DNA from: Candidatus Stoquefichus sp. SB1
Lineage (GTDB): Bacteria > Bacillota_I > Bacilli_A > Erysipelotrichales > Coprobacillaceae
Assembly (NCBI RefSeq): GCF_001244545.1
Contig: NZ_LN852696.1
Location: 186,001 to 250,000 of the forward strand
Direction of reading: 5' to 3'
Length of the DNA: 64,000 nt
Part shown: piece after piece, positions 52,962 through 63,469 of the stretch
How positions within the stretch are numbered: position 1 is the stretch's first letter
Layout of the letters: each line of letters opens with the position of its first letter
The notes under the pieces: generated by a model
Database searches by the model: none
What the model saw: only the letters and a program-made list of their open reading frames with translations
Told to the model about the DNA's origin: nothing
Made by a program: the position numbers and the translations under genes

Positions 52962-53930
52962 ATGGAAATCAAAGAAATTATTGCAACAATTAAACAAGAA
53001 AAACCACAAGTGAAATCAATTTATTATGTAGGGTGTGGCGCTTCACAGGCAGAACTTTATCCTGCTAAATATTTTTTAGAAGCTAATGCTCAACATTTAC
53101 GTATTGCATTATATACTGCTAATGAATTTAATTATGCAACACCTGCAGGATTGAATGAAGATGCAATTGTCATTACTTGCTCATTAGGAGGAACAACACC
53201 AGAAACAGTTGCGGCTTCAAAATTAGCTATGGAAAAAGGGGCAGCAGTCATTGCTATCACAAATAATGGGAACTCTCCATTAGCGAAAGCATGTCATTAT
53301 TTAGTTGTTCATGACTGGGAAGGCAGTTATTCAGCAAAAATGGATAAAATGAATAAAGCTCTTCTCGTTGCCATTGAAATTTTAAATCAATATGAAGGTT
53401 TTGAAACATATGATACAATGATTAAAGCTAATCAGGATATTTATCAAATTATTGATGAAGCTGTTCAAAGTGTTTTGCCACAAGCTAAAGCATTCGCTGA
53501 AAGTTATAAAGATGATGAAGTCATTTATGTGATGTCATCAGGAGCAACTCATAAAGTTGCCTATTCATTTTCTATATGTTTATTAATGGAAATGCAATGG
53601 ATGAATTCTGGTTCATTCCATGATGGAGAATTCTTCCATGGTCCATTTGAAATTACTGATAAAGATGTACCTTTTATCTTATTAATGAATGATGGACGTA
53701 CACGTGCAATGGATTCAAGAGCACTTACATTTTTAGAAAGATTTGATGCAAAAACAACTGTTATAGATGCTAAAGATTTTGGATTAGGTTCATTATTACC
53801 TGGTGGAGTTGCAGAATATTATAGTCCAATGGTGATTTCAGCAGTTTTAAGAATTTATGCTGAACAATTAGCTATTGTCAGAAATCATCCACTTACAAAA
53901 CGTAGATATATGTGGAAATTAGAATATTAG
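52962..53930 (+). CDS. SIS domain sugar isomerase/deglycase (FrlB-like)
   Basis: A 322-residue protein with two SIS domains. YVGCGASQAELYP and ITCSLGGTTPETVAAS match the phosphosugar-binding loops of the first, YVMSSGATHKVAYS the second. EFFHGPFEITD and the C-terminal NHPLTKRRYMWKLEY are typical of fructoselysine-6-phosphate deglycases (FrlB, GfrE, GfrF). It would split a glycated amino acid phosphate into amine and sugar phosphate. A second protein of the same type is at 62504. Preceded by two operator words. Confidence 0.85.
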   Translation: MEIKEIIATIKQEKPQVKSIYYVGCGASQAELYPAKYFLEANAQHLRIALYTANEFNYATPAGLNEDAIVITCSLGGTTPETVAASKLAMEKGAAVIAITNNGNSPLAKACHYLVVHDWEGSYSAKMDKMNKALLVAIEILNQYEGFETYDTMIKANQDIYQIIDEAVQSVLPQAKAFAESYKDDEVIYVMSSGATHKVAYSFSICLLMEMQWMNSGSFHDGEFFHGPFEITDKDVPFILLMNDGRTRAMDSRALTFLERFDAKTTVIDAKDFGLGSLLPGGVAEYYSPMVISAVLRIYAEQLAIVRNHPLTKRRYMWKLEY

Positions 53931-54682: not shown

Positions 54683-55399
54683 ATGAAATTAGATGATAAT
54701 AATTCAATGCCTTTATATTTGCAGTTAAAAAATACAATTAAAGGTTTGATTGATAGTGGTGAAATCAATAAAGGTGATAAAATTCCTTCAGAAAATGAAC
54801 TCTGTAAAAAATATAATGTGAGTCGTATTACTGTTAGAAATGCTTTGGCTGATTTAGAAAGTGAAGGGTATCTCATAAAAAAACAAGGAAAAGGAACATT
54901 TGCAACAACACCTAAATTATTTAGACCTTTACAAGATAGTATTGGTTTTAGTGAATCATGTAAAAATGCGGGTATGGAAAGTTCTTCTATTGTTTTAAAA
55001 AGAGAAATATTACCATTAGATGATCGTATGAAAGATATTTTAAAATTAGCTGATGATGACCAGGTTCTTTATATTCAAAGACTCAGATTAGCTGATGGAA
55101 TACCTTTAATGATTGAAAATAATTATTATTCTTATCAGAAATTTGGTTTCCTTTATAATGAACCTTTAATAGGTTCATTGTATGAATTGTTAGCAGAGAA
55201 AAAGGGAATCATTTGTGATCGTTCATTAAAAACAGTGATTACTGTAACAACAGCAAGTGGTGAACTTGTGAAAATGTTACAAGTTTCTATTGGAGCACCA
55301 TTGTTTGTTATGGATGGGATTATGGGCGATGAACATGGTGAGCCGGTTCATTATAGTTTACAGTATATTGTTGGTGAAAGATATTCGTTTGTTAGATAA
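54683..55399 (+). CDS. GntR family regulator (HutC/FrlR type)
   Basis: A 238-residue regulator. The N-terminal winged helix (about 8-72) reads PLYLQLKNTIKGLIDSGEI, GDKIPSENELCKKYNVSRIT and VRNALADLESEGYL. The rest is a UTRA ligand domain (about 90-235), as in HutC, FrlR and MngR. FrlR-type proteins repress fructosamine-use genes and respond to the sugar phosphate. It probably binds the words at 52893, 52924 and 57045. It has its own TATAAT near 54653. Confidence 0.9.
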   Translation: MKLDDNNSMPLYLQLKNTIKGLIDSGEINKGDKIPSENELCKKYNVSRITVRNALADLESEGYLIKKQGKGTFATTPKLFRPLQDSIGFSESCKNAGMESSSIVLKREILPLDDRMKDILKLADDDQVLYIQRLRLADGIPLMIENNYYSYQKFGFLYNEPLIGSLYELLAEKKGIICDRSLKTVITVTTASGELVKMLQVSIGAPLFVMDGIMGDEHGEPVHYSLQYIVGERYSFVR

Positions 55400-56960: not shown

Positions 56961-57041
56961 AAGTGTCGAAACGTGTTGAGAAGTGTTGAAAATATCAATG
57001 TTTATCCAAATAATTAAAAAGTGTGTCAAAGAATTCAACAC
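56961..57041. repeat. GTGTTGAA repeat array upstream of the levR-like gene
   Basis: Three adjoining ten-base units, AAGTGTCGAA, ACGTGTTGAG and AAGTGTTGAA (56961-56990), then GTGTCAAA (57023-57030) and the inverted form TTCAACAC (57034-57041). The ten-base period puts the units on one face of the helix. Likely a binding array for a regulator of the 57125 gene. Confidence 0.55.
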
Positions 57042-57063
57042 TAATGTTATAAGATGTCATAAT
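57034..57063 (+). promoter_or_regulatory. Promoter of the levR-like gene with operator word, site 3
   Basis: TTCAAC (57034-57039), 18 bases, CATAAT (57058-57063). The spacer contains TGTTATAAGATGT (57045-57057), identical to 13 bases of the words at 52893 and 52924 and again abutting the -10. Confidence 0.6.
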
Positions 57064-57124
57064 ACGATATAGTAGAGTTGTCAGGCAGGGATGAATCAGA
57101 AAACTCATGAAAGGATGATAAAAA

Positions 57125-59848
57125 ATGGCCAGTAGTACAAAAGATCTTATATTAAACTATCTGAGTGATCTGAGTGAAAACTTTGATTTCACACAAGTCC
57201 AGCATTTCACTGCTTCTTCGATTAGTGATGAAATGCATATCAGTAGAAGCCTTGCAAGTCAATATCTCAATGAACTCGTTAAAGAAAAGTCAGTTATGAA
57301 AATTAACTCTCGACCTGTTTACTTCTTACATCGTCAAAAAATGGAGGAACTTTATCAGACAACATTTCAAGATGATGACTTCTATGATTTAGAAGAAGTT
57401 AAGCAATATGTGATGAATCACTCTCAAGGAGTAGGAGATTATTCTCATATTATTGGAAGTGACAAGTCTTTAACAGGTGTTATTAAACAATTACGAGAAA
57501 GCATTGAGTATCCACCAGCCGGTTTACCAGTTGTTGTGTATGGTGAAAAAGGTGCTGGTAAACGTACTTTGTGTACAACAGTCTATGAAAATGCTGCAAG
57601 AAAGGGAATTATTGGAGAAAATACAAAACTTGTGAAATTAGAATTTTCTCCACATAATCAAGAAGAACTTCTTCAGAGTGTCTTTGGACAAAAGAATAAG
57701 CCAGGATTGATTGAAACAAATCATCAAATTGTCTTTATTTTCTGTGGAGCACAGCATATGTCAGAAGCTTTCCAAACACAATTATGTCAATTGATGGAAG
57801 CTGATAAGAATCATATGTCTATGAATCATAAAAATAAAATTATTCGTTATATGTTTGTGAGTGATTTACATCCAAGTTTATTTATGAGCGAAAGACTTTT
57901 AAAGAATATTCCTGTAATTGTGAAAGTTCCTTCCTTAACAGACAAAAGCAATGAAGAAAAAGAAGAATTAATCATTTACTTTGTTCAACAAGAAGGCAAG
58001 AAAATGAATAAAACAATGAAAATCAGTAATGTTGTTTTACGTGCTCTTGTCAATGGAGATTACGATAACAATATGATCGGTCTTCAATCTACAATTCGCA
58101 TTATGTGTGCAAGTGCACTTAGAGAAAGTGCAGGTAAAAACGAAGCCATTATTCACACATATCATTTACCAGAACATCTTCTCCAAACAATGCCAATTAT
58201 GATTAATGAAGATGTCATCTACATCAATACAACAACTTACAAAAAAAGTGAACAAATTGAATTTATCTTAGATTACTTCAACCGTATCCTAAAGCCTTTT
58301 GTCAAAACACAGAGTTTTCTAGAATCAGTTAATGAAAGTAAACATAACTTTGATTTATTAAGTGATTATCTTTCTTACAAGCAAAGAATACCACCTGAAA
58401 GAATCAAAGGAACAGAAATATCATTATCCAATATGATGGATATTGTCTTAAAAAAACGTTATATCAATTTACCAAGTGGTTTTTGTACAACCTTGGCTAA
58501 ATTAATTTATATTAATGATTTGTATAGTTCATCTATCCAAAAATGGCAACAGGATAATCGGAATTTGATTGATGATGTTCTTTCACAAATGAAAGAACAC
58601 CTCTTCAATGAATCATTAATTGTTGAAGATATTATAAGATTAATGAGTACAAACTTAGAAATTCATGCAACTGATTTCTTATCTGTAATTATGATGGTTT
58701 ATTTACAACATTATAATTCAGAATTGACGAATCGAAAGATTTTTGGAATCATTGTCTGTCATGGTTATTCAACAGCAACAAGTATTGCAGATGCTGTGAA
58801 TAGTTTACTTGAAACATATGTTTTTGATGCTGTTGATATGCCACTAGATATTACAGTAGATGAAATTAAAGAAATATTGATGGAAAAATTGAATCGTATG
58901 AATACCAATGCTGATGTTATTGTGATGGTAGATATGGGGTCTCTTGAACAGCTTGGTAAAAGTTTAAGTAGTGCAATTAATTGTAATGTTGGAGTGATTA
59001 ATAATGTTTCTACAAGATTAGCACTTAATGTTGCCAATTGTATCTTAAATGAGAAAGATATGAAAACGACATTACAAAAAGTAAGTGAAGATTCGCTTGC
59101 TCATTATACAATTATTGATCGTAAAAAGAATGATACGATATTATTTACAAGTGAAAGTGGCATTCATATGGCCCAAAGAATGAGAGAATTATTTGAAAAT
59201 AGTTTTCCTCTTCAAGTACCAGTTGATTTAGAGGTCTGTGATTATAACCAGCTCTTAGCAAGTGGTTCAAATCATGAGATTTTTACAAGTAGTAATGTCC
59301 TGTTTATGACAGGGACAGCAAATCCACAAATTGAAGGTCAAATCTTTATTGCCTTAGAAGAAATTATTTCAGGCAATAACATTGATATTATTATGAAACG
59401 TTTATCTAAATATTTAAAACCAGATGAATTAAATCAGTTATTAGATGATTTAAGAAAGAATTTTACATTACAGAATGTTGTTGGATACTTAACGATTTTA
59501 AATCCAAAGGTATTATTAGATAATGTCAGTCAAGCTGTAGAAGAATTACAAGATCATCTTGAAAAGAGATTTGGTGGAAAAACACTGATTGGTATTTATA
59601 TTCATGTTTGTTGTTTGATTGAAAGATTGGTTACAAAATCTGCTATTACTGAATTTGATCATTTAGAAGATTTTGAAAAACATAATCAAAGTTTTATACA
59701 AGATGTTCATGATTCCTTTCAAACATTATCTAAGCGTTATAATGTGACTTTTCCAACGAGTGAAATCGCTTATTTGTATGAATTTATTGCAGCTGATGAA
59801 AAAAGATTTGGAGATGGTGAATTATTATCAAAATTAGAGAAGAAATAG
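57125..59848 (+). CDS. LevR/ManR-family PTS regulator with degenerate AAA+ domain
   Basis: A 907-residue regulator. Parts in order: a winged helix (about 1-75), an AAA+ domain (about 105-330, Walker A-like GEKGAGKRT), PRD1 (about 440-545), a mannose-type EIIA domain (about 545-670, His in IVCHGYST), an EIIB-like domain without its Cys (SESG) and PRD2 (about 790-895, His in YIHVCCL). In LevR proteins the AAA+ domain drives sigma-54 promoters through a GAFTGA loop; here that loop and the Walker B acidic pair (FIFCGA) are missing. It probably controls the PTS genes that follow by another route. Confidence 0.88.
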   Translation: MASSTKDLILNYLSDLSENFDFTQVQHFTASSISDEMHISRSLASQYLNELVKEKSVMKINSRPVYFLHRQKMEELYQTTFQDDDFYDLEEVKQYVMNHSQGVGDYSHIIGSDKSLTGVIKQLRESIEYPPAGLPVVVYGEKGAGKRTLCTTVYENAARKGIIGENTKLVKLEFSPHNQEELLQSVFGQKNKPGLIETNHQIVFIFCGAQHMSEAFQTQLCQLMEADKNHMSMNHKNKIIRYMFVSDLHPSLFMSERLLKNIPVIVKVPSLTDKSNEEKEELIIYFVQQEGKKMNKTMKISNVVLRALVNGDYDNNMIGLQSTIRIMCASALRESAGKNEAIIHTYHLPEHLLQTMPIMINEDVIYINTTTYKKSEQIEFILDYFNRILKPFVKTQSFLESVNESKHNFDLLSDYLSYKQRIPPERIKGTEISLSNMMDIVLKKRYINLPSGFCTTLAKLIYINDLYSSSIQKWQQDNRNLIDDVLSQMKEHLFNESLIVEDIIRLMSTNLEIHATDFLSVIMMVYLQHYNSELTNRKIFGIIVCHGYSTATSIADAVNSLLETYVFDAVDMPLDITVDEIKEILMEKLNRMNTNADVIVMVDMGSLEQLGKSLSSAINCNVGVINNVSTRLALNVANCILNEKDMKTTLQKVSEDSLAHYTIIDRKKNDTILFTSESGIHMAQRMRELFENSFPLQVPVDLEVCDYNQLLASGSNHEIFTSSNVLFMTGTANPQIEGQIFIALEEIISGNNIDIIMKRLSKYLKPDELNQLLDDLRKNFTLQNVVGYLTILNPKVLLDNVSQAVEELQDHLEKRFGGKTLIGIYIHVCCLIERLVTKSAITEFDHLEDFEKHNQSFIQDVHDSFQTLSKRYNVTFPTSEIAYLYEFIAADEKRFGDGELLSKLEKK

Positions 59849-59858
59849 GGGATAGGAA

Positions 59859-60284
59859 ATGGAAAGAGAAAAGAAAGTTGTTATAGCAACACATGGTCAT
59901 CTTGCTGAGGGATTTGTGAGTGCCCTTAAGATTATTGTGGGTGATAATCCACAGGTGACAAGTGTATGTGGATATACAACACCGGATTTTAATTTAGATG
60001 AAACAATTGAAAATATCATGAAAAATCATGATTTTGAAGCATTTGATTTGGTTATATGTACAGATATGATGGGTGGAAGTGTCAATAATGGCTTTATTAA
60101 GTATTTAGGTCAATATCCATTCCATTTGGTAACAAATATCAATTTAGCCTTTTTGGTTGATTTGTTGTTAACACCTGGTGGTATCAATAAAGCAATGCTA
60201 ACAAATAAGGTAAATGAAGAGTTAGTATCTGTAAAATATATTAATAATGTCGTTGAAAGTTTTACTGATGAAGATGATTTATAA
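59859..60284 (+). CDS. PTS mannose-family EIIA
   Basis: A 141-residue phosphocarrier with the phosphorylated His12 in IATHGHLAEG and the CTDMMGGSVNNGF loop. It accepts phosphate from HPr and hands it to EIIB. It begins ten bases after the regulator stop, so the regulator and PTS share a transcript. Confidence 0.94.
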   Translation: MEREKKVVIATHGHLAEGFVSALKIIVGDNPQVTSVCGYTTPDFNLDETIENIMKNHDFEAFDLVICTDMMGGSVNNGFIKYLGQYPFHLVTNINLAFLVDLLLTPGGINKAMLTNKVNEELVSVKYINNVVESFTDEDDL

Positions 60285-60302: not shown

Positions 60303-60767
60303 ATGATTAAGGCAGTTAGAATTGATCATCGATTGGTACATGGTCAGGTCGCATTTACTTGGACACATTTCTTAGCAGCAACAAGAATTATTGTTATTGA
60401 TGATAAGGCTGCAAATGATGAATTTCAAAAGATGGCATTAAATATGTCTAAACCAGCTGGGGTGAAGTTAAATATTTTCACTGTTGAAAAGGCTTTATCA
60501 AAGATGGCAAAAGTAGAAACATTAAATGATACAATCTTTATCATTTTTGGTGGAACGCATGATGCAGCAAGATTTATAGAGGCATATCCAAAGATTAAGG
60601 AAATTAATTATGGAGGGATTGCTAAAAAAGAGGGATCAAATTCGTATGGTGATGTTGTTTATTTAAACGCTGAGGAAGTCGCTGATACGAAAAAGATATT
60701 AAGCTGTGGAACAAAAATCTTTATGCAACAGCTTCCAACGAGTAAAAAAGAAGAATTAAAATTATAG
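60303..60767 (+). CDS. PTS mannose-family EIIB
   Basis: A 154-residue phosphocarrier. The phosphorylated His13 lies in RIDHRLVHGQVAFTW, the signature of this family. GGAGGTGAAAG precedes the start. It is a separate polypeptide here, not fused to EIIA as in ManX. Confidence 0.95.
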   Translation: MIKAVRIDHRLVHGQVAFTWTHFLAATRIIVIDDKAANDEFQKMALNMSKPAGVKLNIFTVEKALSKMAKVETLNDTIFIIFGGTHDAARFIEAYPKIKEINYGGIAKKEGSNSYGDVVYLNAEEVADTKKILSCGTKIFMQQLPTSKKEELKL

Positions 60768-60785: not shown

Positions 60786-61583
60786 ATGTTAATAGAAGCA
60801 ATTATCGTGGGATTGATTGCAGTCTTTGCAAGAATTGATTCACGTATGTTAGGACGTTTAAATTTTGAAAGACCATTAATTACATGTACACTTGTAGGTT
60901 TGTTCTTGGGAGATGTGAAAACTGGTTTGGCAGTTGGAGCATCAATGGAAATGGTAAGTTTAGGATTTATGAGTATTGGAGCTTCTGGCTTTGATATGAA
61001 TATGGGATCTATTGCTGGGTGTGCTTTGGTTATTATGACAGGAGCAAATATTGAAACAGCTTTAGCAATTGCAACACCAATGACTTTATTGATTACATTG
61101 ATTGAAACTGGAGCAAGTGTTGTTCGTATCAGTATGACTCATATGTGTGATAATTATGTTGATAATGGTGAATATCAAAAAGCGAAGATGGTTGATATTT
61201 TCTGGGGTCCATTATTATATGCAGTTTGTACTTTTGTTCCTGTATTTATGGCTGTTTATTTAGGTGCTGATGTTATTAATGCAATTGTTAATGCAGTTCC
61301 TGAATTTGTATTAAATGGAATTACTTTGGGAGCTAATTTGGTTGCCTTCTTTGGTTTTGCTATGTTGTTGTCAGTTATGATTAATAAGAAAAATGCAATA
61401 TTCTTCTTCTTAGGATTTGCGATTGCAGCTTATTCAGGATTAAGTTTAACTGCAATTGCTGTGATTTCAGTGATTATGGCTGTCTTATTTTATCAGTTGA
61501 AATATGGTGATGGTTCATCTCTTCAAGGAGCAGGAGCAAGCGTTGATGAGTTAGATGAACTTGATGATGAATTAGATGATTAG
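60786..61583 (+). CDS. PTS mannose-family EIIC
   Basis: A 265-residue membrane subunit with seven or more helices. RIDSRMLGRLNFERP, GLFLGDVKTGLAVGASMEM and MNMGSIAGCALV are family motifs. The tail is very acidic (VDELDELDDELDD). It forms the sugar channel with EIID. Confidence 0.94.
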   Translation: MLIEAIIVGLIAVFARIDSRMLGRLNFERPLITCTLVGLFLGDVKTGLAVGASMEMVSLGFMSIGASGFDMNMGSIAGCALVIMTGANIETALAIATPMTLLITLIETGASVVRISMTHMCDNYVDNGEYQKAKMVDIFWGPLLYAVCTFVPVFMAVYLGADVINAIVNAVPEFVLNGITLGANLVAFFGFAMLLSVMINKKNAIFFFLGFAIAAYSGLSLTAIAVISVIMAVLFYQLKYGDGSSLQGAGASVDELDELDDELDD

Positions 61584-61595
61584 GAGGAGAAAAAG

Positions 61596-62432
61596 ATGTC
61601 ACAAAAAGGATTAGAAGCACAAAGAAATTATCCATTACGTAAAAAAGTTAGAGAGTTTTTCTGGGGTGGATGGTGTATGCAGACAAACTGGAACTATGAA
61701 AGACAGATGAATACAGCATTCATGTGGGGAATTTCTAAAACAATTGATCGTCTGTATCCCAATCCAGATGAAGATGAAAAGAAAAAAGAAAGATATCGTG
61801 CAGGGTTAGAGTTCTTTAATATTACACCACAATTTGGTTCATTCGTATTAGGTTTGACTGCTGCAATGGAAGAAGAATATGCTGAAAAACCAGAAGTCTT
61901 TGATCCTAAAATGATTACATCAGTCAAAACGGCTTTGATGGGTCCATTATCTGGAATTGGTGATTCTCTGTTCCAAGGGACAGTAAGAATTATTGCAATG
62001 AGTATTGGTATTTCATTAGCTCAGCAAGGATCAATCTTAGGTCCGATCTTAGCGATGTTGATTTCATTTGGAGTTAGTTTCCCAATTACATGGTTTGGTG
62101 GGAAGTTAGGTTATACAAAAGGACAAGAATTAATTCGTCAAATTTCTGAAAGTAACTTAATGGATAAATTAATGTATGGATGTTCCATTGCTGGATTAAT
62201 GGTTGTTGGTGGAATGTCTGCAACATTAGTTAATGTTACAACACCACTTAAATATGGTGAAACATTGATTGTTCAGGAGATTTTAGATGGTATTATGCCA
62301 ATGATGTTACCATTAGCATTAACTGGTTTTATGTATTTCTTAGTGAAAAAGGGTGTTCACCCAATCGCAATTGTTGTTTGTTGCTTTATTGCTGGAATTA
62401 TCTTAAATTACTTTGGTATTTTAGCAGCTTAG
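61596..62432 (+). CDS. PTS mannose-family EIID
   Basis: A 278-residue membrane subunit. FFWGGWCMQTNWNYERQMN at the N-terminus, FFNITPQFGSFVLGLTAAMEE, LMGPLSGIGDSLFQGT and the two C-terminal helices match the family. It follows EIIC by 12 bases with AGGAGG upstream. Such four-part PTSs import mannose, fructosamines or related sugars; the deglycase next to it points to glycated amino acids. Confidence 0.94.
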   Translation: MSQKGLEAQRNYPLRKKVREFFWGGWCMQTNWNYERQMNTAFMWGISKTIDRLYPNPDEDEKKKERYRAGLEFFNITPQFGSFVLGLTAAMEEEYAEKPEVFDPKMITSVKTALMGPLSGIGDSLFQGTVRIIAMSIGISLAQQGSILGPILAMLISFGVSFPITWFGGKLGYTKGQELIRQISESNLMDKLMYGCSIAGLMVVGGMSATLVNVTTPLKYGETLIVQEILDGIMPMMLPLALTGFMYFLVKKGVHPIAIVVCCFIAGIILNYFGILAA

Positions 62433-62503: not shown

Positions 62504-63469
62504 ATGTTCGATGTTAAAAAAATGATTGAAGAGATTACTTCAAAAAAAGAAATCAAAAATATTAGTTTTACTGGAGTAGGAGGTTCATTAGCTTGTTTCT
62601 ATGCACCATATTATTATGTGACAAGAGAAGCTAAAAATGTGACAACAAGCTATACATCATCAAATGAATTTGTTCATGATACACCATCATGTATAGGGGA
62701 AAATTCAATTGTTGTGATTTCATCACGTGGTGGAAATACTGCTGAAACAGTTGAAGCTGGACGTGTTGCTAAAAAATTAGGAGCAACTGTTATTGGTATG
62801 ACACATGAAGAAGGAGACAATGGAATTCATGAAGTTTCTGATTATGTCATCTTATTTAAAGATTTATCTGAGGATGTTTATGAGGTCAGCAAAACTGGAT
62901 ATATCTTACGTATTGCAGTTGAAACATTACATCAAGTTGAAGGAACTGGAAAATATGAATTGATGATTGATGCAATGAAAAAAATGAATACTCTTGTTCC
63001 TGCAGCTGAAAAAGCAATTATTCCAGAAGCTATTCAATTTTCAATCAATTATAAAAATGATAATATCATTTATACAATGGGATCAGGAACAGCATGGTCT
63101 GCTGCTCAACAACAACAAATTTGTATTTTAATGGAAATGCAATGGATCAACTCTGCAGTTATTCATACTGGTGAATTCTTCCATGGACCATTTGAAATTA
63201 CAGATCCAGATACAGCATTCTTATTACTTAAATCAACTGGTAAGACAAAACCATTAGATGAAAGAGCAATCTCATTCTTAAGTCAATATAATCATCATTT
63301 CACAGTTATTGATGGTGAAAAATATGGTATGAATGATTTAGGTGAAGTCAGTGAATACTTCGATTATGATTTCCATACAGCAATGTTAGGTGTATTCAAT
63401 AACTTACTTGCAGATATGAGAAATCATCCATTAAGTAAAAGAAAATATATGTGGAAATATAAATATTAA
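62504..63469 (+). CDS. SIS domain deglycase (FrlB/GfrF-like)
   Basis: A 321-residue double-SIS protein, similar in plan to the one at 52962. Phosphosugar loops are FTGVGGSLACFYAP, ISSRGGNTAETVEAG and YTMGSGTAWSAAQQ. EFFHGPFEITD and the end NHPLSKRKYMWKYKY are shared with the other copy. It probably splits a glycated amino acid 6-phosphate imported by the PTS encoded just upstream. In Salmonella the gfr operon has two such deglycases, for glucoselysine and fructoselysine; the same split of duties is likely here. Confidence 0.86.
   Translation: MFDVKKMIEEITSKKEIKNISFTGVGGSLACFYAPYYYVTREAKNVTTSYTSSNEFVHDTPSCIGENSIVVISSRGGNTAETVEAGRVAKKLGATVIGMTHEEGDNGIHEVSDYVILFKDLSEDVYEVSKTGYILRIAVETLHQVEGTGKYELMIDAMKKMNTLVPAAEKAIIPEAIQFSINYKNDNIIYTMGSGTAWSAAQQQQICILMEMQWINSAVIHTGEFFHGPFEITDPDTAFLLLKSTGKTKPLDERAISFLSQYNHHFTVIDGEKYGMNDLGEVSEYFDYDFHTAMLGVFNNLLADMRNHPLSKRKYMWKYKY

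Follow-up and report, generated by a model that had tools for sequence, protein, structure and literature searches.

Introduction

LevR of Bacillus subtilis and CelR of Bacillus thuringiensis, as treated in the relevant part of PMC10864463, are activators controlled by the phosphotransferase system (PTS). For LevR this account describes a stimulating phosphate on the EIIA-type His, received from HPr, and an inhibiting phosphate on the His of the second PTS regulation domain (PRD2), received from EIIB; for CelR it reports that changing the EIIB-type Cys lowers activity. LevR-like proteins are classed with the sigma-54 group of enhancer-binding proteins (EBPs) in the section of PMC3162934 that covers them, which also names TyrR, DhaR and HupR as sigma-70-dependent EBP relatives, and VpsR and YplP as proteins without an intact GAFTGA loop that are probably not sigma-54 dependent. 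Here we describe a LevR-type regulator of 907 residues encoded on a 64,000-nucleotide stretch of DNA (the window) from Candidatus Stoquefichus sp. SB1, contig NZ_LN852696.1, positions 186,001 to 250,000. We judge, with a probability of about 0.65 and from sequence comparison, that this protein has been freed from sigma-54 and now activates its own PTS operon in a sigma-A-dependent manner, under the control of phosphorylation.

The window regulator resembles LevR, DagR and CelR in aligning nearly end to end with the DagR profile, in carrying both the EIIA His and the PRD2 His, and in adjoining a mannose-family PTS operon, and it shares an AGTGTYGA half-site with its nearest sigma-54-dependent LevR-type relatives. 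Unlike LevR, DagR and CelR, it lacks the GAFTGA loop, Walker B, the Arg finger and the EIIB Cys, no rpoN gene or flanking -24/-12 promoter was found for it, it lies 10 nt before its PTS genes, and its sites stand upstream of its own gene. With TyrR, DhaR, HupR, VpsR and YplP it has in common an EBP-type AAA+ fold, known here from a structure model, in which GAFTGA is changed or deleted; it differs from them in that control by PTS phosphorylation through EIIA and PRD is expected, and in that Walker B and the Arg fingers are gone as well.

Activators of the MtlR/LicR type, which also contain PRDs, act on sigma-A promoters, and the gfr operon combines a LevR-type regulator with genes for a mannose-family PTS and a SIS deglycase. 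The window regulator, as we propose it, would be like MtlR and LicR a PRD activator phosphorylated by the PTS; the domain order of that type, where PMC10864463 sets it out, includes a Mga-like domain and no AAA+ domain, whereas the window regulator has the EBP fold and LevR-related sequence. It is like GfrR in being a LevR-type regulator found with mannose-family PTS and SIS genes, and unlike GfrR in that its SIS proteins fall far short of the cut-off for fructoselysine-6-P deglycase and that GfrR is linked to sigma-54, being listed among the sigma-54 regulons of Clostridium and Clostridioides in the pertinent part of PMC6615313, a survey of EBPs in sigma-54-bearing Clostridiales. Among the papers listed in a literature search by title and opening lines of the abstract, which reached few subscription journals, none treated a LevR-type protein freed from sigma-54. 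The departure from the LevR mechanism suggested in the initial annotation is supported, with the qualification that release of EBPs from sigma-54 in general has precedents in TyrR, DhaR and HupR (PMC3162934, in the section cited above).

Domains and conserved residues of the regulator

The regulator matches the DagR profile NF047795 with 293 bits over residues 6-888 of 907 (equivalog cut-off 1400), and a full-length alignment places its regions collinear with the LevR/DagR architecture, helix-turn-helix (HTH)-AAA+-PRD1-EIIA-EIIB-PRD2, of which PRD1 is not seen by Pfam. The features are as follows.

57125..59848, forward strand: LevR/DagR-type regulator, probably sigma-54 independent, 907 amino acids (open reading frame; DagR profile NF047795)
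57194..57325, forward strand: predicted winged-HTH-like N-terminal DNA-binding region, residues ~24-67 (TrmB match below cut-off)
57437..58174, forward strand: degenerate AAA+ domain, residues ~105-350, without GAFTGA, Walker B and Arg finger; fold retained in the model
58316..58729, forward strand: PRD1-like helical region, residues ~398-535 (helices in the structure model; no Pfam match)
58736..59104, forward strand: EIIA-Man-like domain with His546, codon 58760-58762 (Pfam PF03610)
59126..59509, forward strand: EIIB-Gat-like domain with Ser676 replacing Cys, codon 59150-59152 (alignment)
59531..59791, forward strand: PRD2 with His827, codon 59603-59605 (Pfam PF00874, 40.5 bits)

The Pfam model Sigma54_activat (PF00158) scores the window regulator at 21.2 bits, with a cut-off of 20.2, and two relatives with an intact sigma-54 interface at 132.9 and 129.8. 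The GAFTGA loop is deleted; the Walker A motif reads GEKGAGKR, in which the Lys is retained and Arg stands in place of Ser/Thr; the Walker B position is CG, not DE; and both Arg-finger positions are KN, not RR. (The Walker and finger motif names and the -24/-12 consensus string are applied here in what we take to be their usual form.) In a residue alignment of 71 LevR-type proteins, obtained from 72 by dropping one ClpB-like frame, all 32 proteins with an intact interface (hereafter intact, the others degenerate) have the Asp-Glu of Walker B and the two Arg of the finger. The EIIB Cys likewise occurs in 32/32 intact proteins versus 0/15 of the degenerate clade to which the window regulator belongs (D1).

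Of the residues expected to receive regulatory phosphate, the EIIA His is present in 71/71 aligned proteins and the PRD2 His in 69/71. The EIIA-Man-like domain has PDB relatives in 3gx1 and 3gdw. Pfam calls a single PRD, at residues 803-889, and gives no match at residues ~398-535, a region that is all-helical in the model; a conserved PRD1 His was not seen in the alignment blocks inspected, neither in the D1 clade nor in intact relatives. At the N-terminus the TrmB match reaches 15.6 bits (cut-off 25.6), and HTH residues S40, R41, S45, Y47 and N49 are unchanged across 37 aligned sequences, four of which are intact relatives.

The main regulatory inputs of the window regulator look retained, to judge by these residues, and its sigma-54 output machinery gone. 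The initial annotation had described a LevR-type regulator that lost the sigma-54 interface, with a Walker A-like loop but no acidic Walker B, an EIIB-like domain lacking its Cys, and an EIIA-type His, and the alignment bears out each of these points; its statement that both PRDs are kept holds for PRD2, found by Pfam, while PRD1 is represented by helices in the model and has no Pfam match.

Sigma-54 and -24/-12 promoters

In the source genome (3.59 Mb in 6 contigs, estimated 100% complete), the search suggested by the initial annotation for rpoN gave no match to its DNA-binding domain (DBD), which the same search recovered in the controls E. coli, B. subtilis and two other genomes. There was also no match to the activator-interacting domain (AID), and the core-binding domain (CBD) yielded one piece of 35 residues and 16.7 bits, below cut-off. 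No -24/-12 match of at least 9/11 occurs on the gene's strand within 450 b of either end of the frame, coding body excluded, in agreement with the earlier report of no such promoter nearby. The combination that would speak against the proposal, an rpoN gene together with a -24/-12 promoter, was thus sought in the genome and the regulator flanks and not found.

Across 294 genomes of the order, some match to the rpoN DBD is present in 60 and a match above cut-off in 53. Intact members of the 71-protein sample come from genomes with a strong DBD match in 31 of 32 cases, the exception being a genome that is 75% complete, and degenerate members come from genomes without one in 38 of 39, weak or fragmentary matches being counted as absent. 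This sample is uneven. The 30 best P0001 loci supplied 24 proteins and the 30 best DagR loci another 27; a further 19 come from 20 picked regions of rpoN-negative genomes and one from a region picked for an RpoN-like piece, and these picks were blind to the AAA+ sequence. A second, named set comprises the best 80 of 191 relatives, and 34 of its 80 loci, hand-picked independently of rpoN, were checked for the gene. In this check, on genomes of unstated completeness, all 6 intact loci lie in rpoN-positive genomes; among the 28 degenerate loci, the genome shows a strong match for 9, an rpoN piece only for 3 (Longibaculum, a Hungatella metagenome-assembled genome and Enterocloster) and no match for 16. 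From these counts, an intact regulator goes with rpoN in these samples, but a degenerate regulator does not imply its absence, and the 9 loci rule out the notion that loss of the interface is a mere by-product of losing rpoN.

From 20 b before the regulator end to 450 b after it, a -24/-12 match is present at 23/32 intact versus 0/39 degenerate loci, with 2 intact (n = 32) and 1 degenerate (n = 39) matches on the upstream side. In the named set the downstream match is found at 12/14 intact versus 2/66 degenerate rows, in a recount that takes L182 as intact (GAFTDA) and in which L172 is an unusable pick of 51 amino acids.

Several relatives show further arrangements of these elements. In Enterocloster alcoholdehydrogenati (L137) the match to the sigma-54 DBD is limited to 41 residues, lies in a 71-amino-acid frame (G647:C8:180320-180442) and resembles an rpoN remnant. 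In five genomes (G010, G012, G027, G029 and G031), an intact LevR-type gene has rpoN at a distance of at most ~2 kb, an arrangement that resembles a sigma factor travelling with one operon as its private partner. In the first of these, between the intact LevR-type gene and the PTS genes (L085:6080-6491), there are about six tandem units of 67 bp with -24/-12 matches at the same period, and several -24/-12 matches are also present in G012, G031 and G027.

A putative conserved operator and promoter upstream of the regulator

The window region upstream of the regulator was aligned with those of Longibaculum muris DSM 29487 (G028), whose orthologous regulator is 75% identical, and Candidatus Stoquefichus massiliensis, and contains the following elements.

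56963..56989, forward strand: putative operator, distal array of direct half-sites GTGTCGA, GTGTTGA and GTGTTGA, 10 bp apart, starting at 56963, 56973 and 56983
57023..57041, forward strand: proximal dyad GTGTCAA-N5-TCAACAC, overlapping the -35; its first half has one mismatch to GTGTYGA
57035..57063, forward strand: candidate sigma-A-type promoter, -35 TCAACA, 17 bp, extended -10 TGtCATAAT (9/12; conservation)

Invariant runs of at least 7 nt before the start codon coincide with four of the five half-sites (two of the three distal ones and both of the dyad), a 27-nt promoter block (57045-57071) that partly covers the sigma-A-type promoter, an 18-nt leader block, the ribosome-binding site and one run at the left edge. 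Identity over the three genomes amounts to 59/68 positions in 57034-57101 versus 61/148 upstream. A promoter scan of the region is by itself not above chance (54 found versus 44.2 expected, sd 6.6); the promoter call is based on conservation. The exact tandem pair GTGTYGA-N3-6-GTGTYGA occurs in the 3.59-Mb genome in the distal array only, and the reversed pattern 0 times. The last distal and first proximal half-sites start 40 bp apart. A dyad of this spacing is also present in Longibaculum and Massilimicrobiota, where one half is mismatched as in the window, in an uncultured relative at 38% identity, and, with two mismatches, in C. cadaveris.

The invariant leader block at 57083-57100, AGGCAGGGATGAATCAGA, precedes the regulator in all three genomes and contains an ATG from which a short frame (14 codons in the window) extends over the regulator start.

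Beyond these genomes, counting of 7-mers found AGTGTYGA enriched upstream of D1 regulators and, in intact relatives, the -24 box together with GTGTCGA on the downstream side. At 54 degenerate loci unused in motif discovery, GTGTYGA on either strand is present upstream (-300 to +100 of the frame opening) in 33 (mean 4.6, maximum 10 in 200 shuffles) and downstream in 8 (shuffled mean 3.9, maximum 9). Ten new intact loci show the reverse distribution, with the site downstream in 9/10 (shuffled mean 0.9, maximum 3) and upstream in 1/10. In the nearest sigma-54-dependent relatives these sites lie about the end of the regulator, ahead of a -24/-12 promoter. The test retained near-identical loci but omitted L130, for its short flank, and L118 and L172, for their short frames. 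From these counts the same half-site appears to have been kept and its position mostly moved from downstream to upstream. Over intact loci as a whole the signal is weak and limited to a subgroup, with a position weight matrix match in 16/27 (shuffled mean 10.5, maximum 15).

In seven intact relatives TAGTGTCGAAA is located 52-70 b before the regulator end, that is, in its last codons. The match to AGTGTCGAAA in the 3' end of intact regulators could be an artifact of a conserved peptide, YSVE; we dismiss this because all seven use the codons AGT-GTC-GAA, for which the genes' own codon usage gives a probability of ~5e-12, assuming independence and ignoring relatedness. In three of the seven, GTC accounts for just 3-8% of the codons for Val. 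L063-L065, which are close relatives of one another and have a different peptide there, likewise carry GTGTCGA.

Phylogeny and stepwise loss of the interface

An order-level tree of the 71 proteins, built with the AAA+ columns removed, needs three changes between the intact and degenerate states, of which the starred branches force two. A single origin of all degenerate proteins was rejected by the approximately unbiased test (p = 7e-41; on a 33-row subset, with the group named after the first tree was seen). In these sequences the interface is lost at least twice among the LevR-type proteins of the order: in D1, found beside a mannose-type PTS, and in D2, a clade of 22 proteins that, judged by eye, lie beside lactose/cellobiose-type PTS genes. 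A small group, D3, is perhaps a third separate loss.

A tree of 104 rows was built from D1, intact relatives of D1 and 62 members of the named set of 80; the other 18, identical or shorter than 800 amino acids, were left out, as were D2 and D3. All 67 of its degenerate proteins form one clade (67/67), with a Shimodaira-Hasegawa-like approximate likelihood ratio (SH-aLRT) support of 91, and this clade spans Erysipelotrichia, Clostridia and Coriobacteriia. The phylogeny that the initial annotation had called for thus makes the loss a property of a clade. Its sister is an intact protein of Clostridium puniceum (SH-aLRT 99, and 95 and 95 in the 33-row test), in which the EIIB Cys is already gone, GAFTGA and LFLDE are kept, and the gap between regulator and PTS has GTGTCGA and, 13 b further on, a weak -24/-12-like site (8/11). 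A Caproiciproducens relative has GAFAGA and Walker B, Hungatella and Enterocloster relatives have lost GAFTGA and kept FFDE, and most other degenerate relatives have lost both GAFTGA and Walker B. The trees are quick ones with some long branches; read with that in mind, the series of an intact sister and half-decayed members looks like a stepwise path of loss.

The other degenerate groups have peculiarities of their own. Upstream of D2 regulators other 7-mers are enriched, AGTGTAT in 12/19 and GTGTATA in 13/19 regions, one of which (L111) belongs to D1. The D3 member from Longibaculum muris (L089:5824-8631, reverse strand) has at residues 4-53 an N-terminal sigma-54 DBD (PF04552, 33.7 bits) that replaces the usual HTH, and a C-terminal EIIA_2 domain where PRD2 is expected; no second match to the sigma-54 DBD was found in that genome. 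The other D3 member is L090 in G091.

Structure and selection on the AAA+ domain

An AlphaFold model of the regulator, built from 37 sequences, has a predicted local distance difference test score (pLDDT) of 82.7. In Foldseek its AAA+ part matches the sigma-54 activator 1ojl with a template modeling (TM) score, by target, of up to 0.77, and VpsR (7v2v) with a TM score of 0.46; the VpsR structures 7v2v and 7v2b were recovered by fold, whereas the sequence match to VpsR reaches only E 0.079. The model is thus an EBP AAA+ fold without GAFTGA, as in relatives of the TyrR/VpsR type.

The degenerate AAA+ domain remains under purifying selection. Among three close D1 relatives, the ratio of nonsynonymous to synonymous substitution rates (dN/dS) is 0.07-0.09 for AAA+, 0.06-0.12 for the HTH and at most 0.06 for other domains; three intact pairs give 0.03-0.05 for AAA+ and 0.15-0.21 for the HTH. 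These values indicate that AAA+ is still selected in D1, the balance of constraint having shifted towards DNA binding.

Proposed mechanism and alternatives

In the mechanism that we propose, the winged HTH would bind AGTGTYGA-like half-sites upstream of the regulator's own gene, at the three-site array near -84 to -104 and at the dyad centered near -38 of the predicted start. The bound regulator would control a sigma-A promoter whose -10 is extended and whose -35 is weak, and this promoter would drive the regulator and the EIIA-EIIB-EIIC-EIID-SIS genes as one operon. Phosphate from HPr, of which the source genome has two genes, would stimulate at EIIA His546, and phosphate from EIIB would inhibit at PRD2, probably at His827; this input, which would be inherited from LevR, would report sugar uptake. 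The AAA+ domain would have lost ATPase activity and contact with sigma-54 and been kept as a folded, selected scaffold. Loss of the interface, the retained His residues, the conserved and relocated site, the conserved promoter block and the close gene spacing can be read from the sequences themselves. The positive sign of regulation would follow by analogy, the activator being favored because LevR and CelR, which share both His positions, are activators. The initial proposal of a phosphorylation-controlled regulator of ordinary sigma-A promoters, whether repressor or activator, fits the GTGTYGA sites beside a sigma-A-type promoter and the two retained His.

A number of observations weigh against this picture. 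No exact upstream GTGTYGA is present at 21 of the 54 new degenerate loci, several Coriobacteriia carry sites in the regulator-PTS gap instead, and many of the 27 intact loci, outside the nearest subgroup, are without a site of this type. The 9/28 degenerate loci in genomes with strong rpoN matches mean that sigma-54 is not always absent, and more distant D1 pairs have AAA+ dN/dS of 0.17-0.24, at dS above 1. A site overlapping the -35 also suits a repressor, the extended TGn -10 might fire unaided, and the nearby GntR regulator may also act at this promoter. Finally, the part of PMC10864463 on B. thuringiensis CelR reports that activity rose on changing PRD2 His-839 and not the conserved His-822, so that the inhibiting PRD2 site may differ from His827.

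It is unlikely, though worth weighing at some length, that the protein is instead a repressor of the sigma-A promoter, which would bind the -35 dyad and the distal array, with a loop between them, and block the operon until phosphorylation or dephosphorylation releases it. The overlap of the proximal dyad with the -35, the 40-bp start spacing of the clusters, which permits a loop, and an extended -10 that could fire unaided would all suit such a repressor. Speaking for activation, the -35 is poor (TCAACA, 4/6), the regulators with these two His positions, LevR and CelR, are activators in the account of PMC10864463, and the half-site is common to sigma-54-dependent relatives, where it should serve activation.

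A functionless, decaying, pseudogene-like remnant is very improbable. The regulator of Ca. Stoquefichus massiliensis (G033; L080:7592-10839, reverse strand) is split into two frames of 680 and 395 amino acids that both carry EIIA-Man, as after a partial tandem duplication, although an assembly error is possible, and the G001 gene is also split into two frames; against this stand a full-length open frame in many species, the low dN/dS in the three close relatives, and the conserved upstream site. We give equally little credence to the idea that the AGTGTYGA sites serve the neighboring GntR-UTRA regulator, whose gene lies 1.7 kb upstream in the window, and not the LevR-type protein: a GntR homolog is found (in DNA up to 5 kb on each side) near 5 of the 31 listed degenerate loci with an upstream site, so GntR fails to explain these sites, and intact LevR relatives carry the same one. 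Cryptic use of sigma-54, through an unrecognized rpoN or one on a missing replicon, is least credible of all, since the sub-threshold CBD piece and the rpoN-positive degenerate loci are set against three rpoN domains of which none exceeds its cut-off in a genome estimated complete, the loss of GAFTGA, Walker B and the Arg fingers, and the 0/39 versus 23/32 downstream -24/-12 matches.

The sigma-A-dependent activator proposed here might be one case of a wider change, which we put forward tentatively and with rather less than even expectation of its being right in full. The whole LevR-type clade would have moved from sigma-54 to sigma-A, losing the EIIB Cys first, then GAFTGA and then the ATPase residues, while the AGTGTYGA sites shifted from the surroundings of the regulator-PTS gap to a place upstream of the regulator; the degenerate AAA+ domain would be retained because it can still assemble in the absence of ATP, which would let the distal and proximal sites work jointly on sigma-A polymerase, and another lineage of the order would have lost the interface independently. 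The intact sister and the half-decayed members would then be a natural series, in existing species, from an ATP-driven enhancer system to an ordinary regulator. Automatic annotation likely calls such proteins sigma-54-dependent activators, the PF00158 cut-off being exceeded by one bit here, and often does so in genomes without an rpoN match (16 of the 28 degenerate loci checked); if the proposal is true, the regulons of Collinsella, Erysipelothrix, Lachnospiraceae and others have to be predicted with a different motif, AGTGTYGA plus sigma-A.

Gene neighborhood

The regulator is followed closely by the PTS genes, and a second gene block lies upstream.

59859..60284, forward strand: PTS EIIA, mannose family, 10 nt after the regulator (Pfam)
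60303..60767, forward strand: PTS EIIB, sorbose/mannose family (Pfam)
60786..61583, forward strand: PTS EIIC (Pfam)
61596..62432, forward strand: PTS EIID (Pfam)
62504..63469, forward strand: SIS-domain protein, distant relative of fructoselysine-6-P deglycase (73 bits, cut-off 430)
52962..53930, forward strand: second SIS-domain deglycase-like protein, upstream gene block (92 bits, cut-off 430)
54683..55399, forward strand: GntR-UTRA regulator, upstream gene block (Pfam)

The upstream block also holds a HAD phosphatase (53964) and a MATE transporter. Since both SIS proteins resemble fructoselysine-6-P deglycase only remotely by these scores, the sugar substrate is only a guess. Close spacing to the next frame (at least 90 amino acids in the first count) is commoner at degenerate loci: the gap is 30 nt or less at 26/37 degenerate versus 3/30 intact loci with a gap call, and at 36/62 degenerate versus 3/14 intact named loci.

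In Massilimicrobiota, a HAD phosphatase-SIS fusion (L077:3956-5683) corresponds to what in the window are the neighboring separate genes at 52962 and 53964. A reading of this 576-amino-acid protein as a HAD-GntR fusion was ruled out by Pfam, which gives HAD-SIS, and a 578-amino-acid frame in L081, judged from its start and length, is probably a HAD-SIS fusion too.

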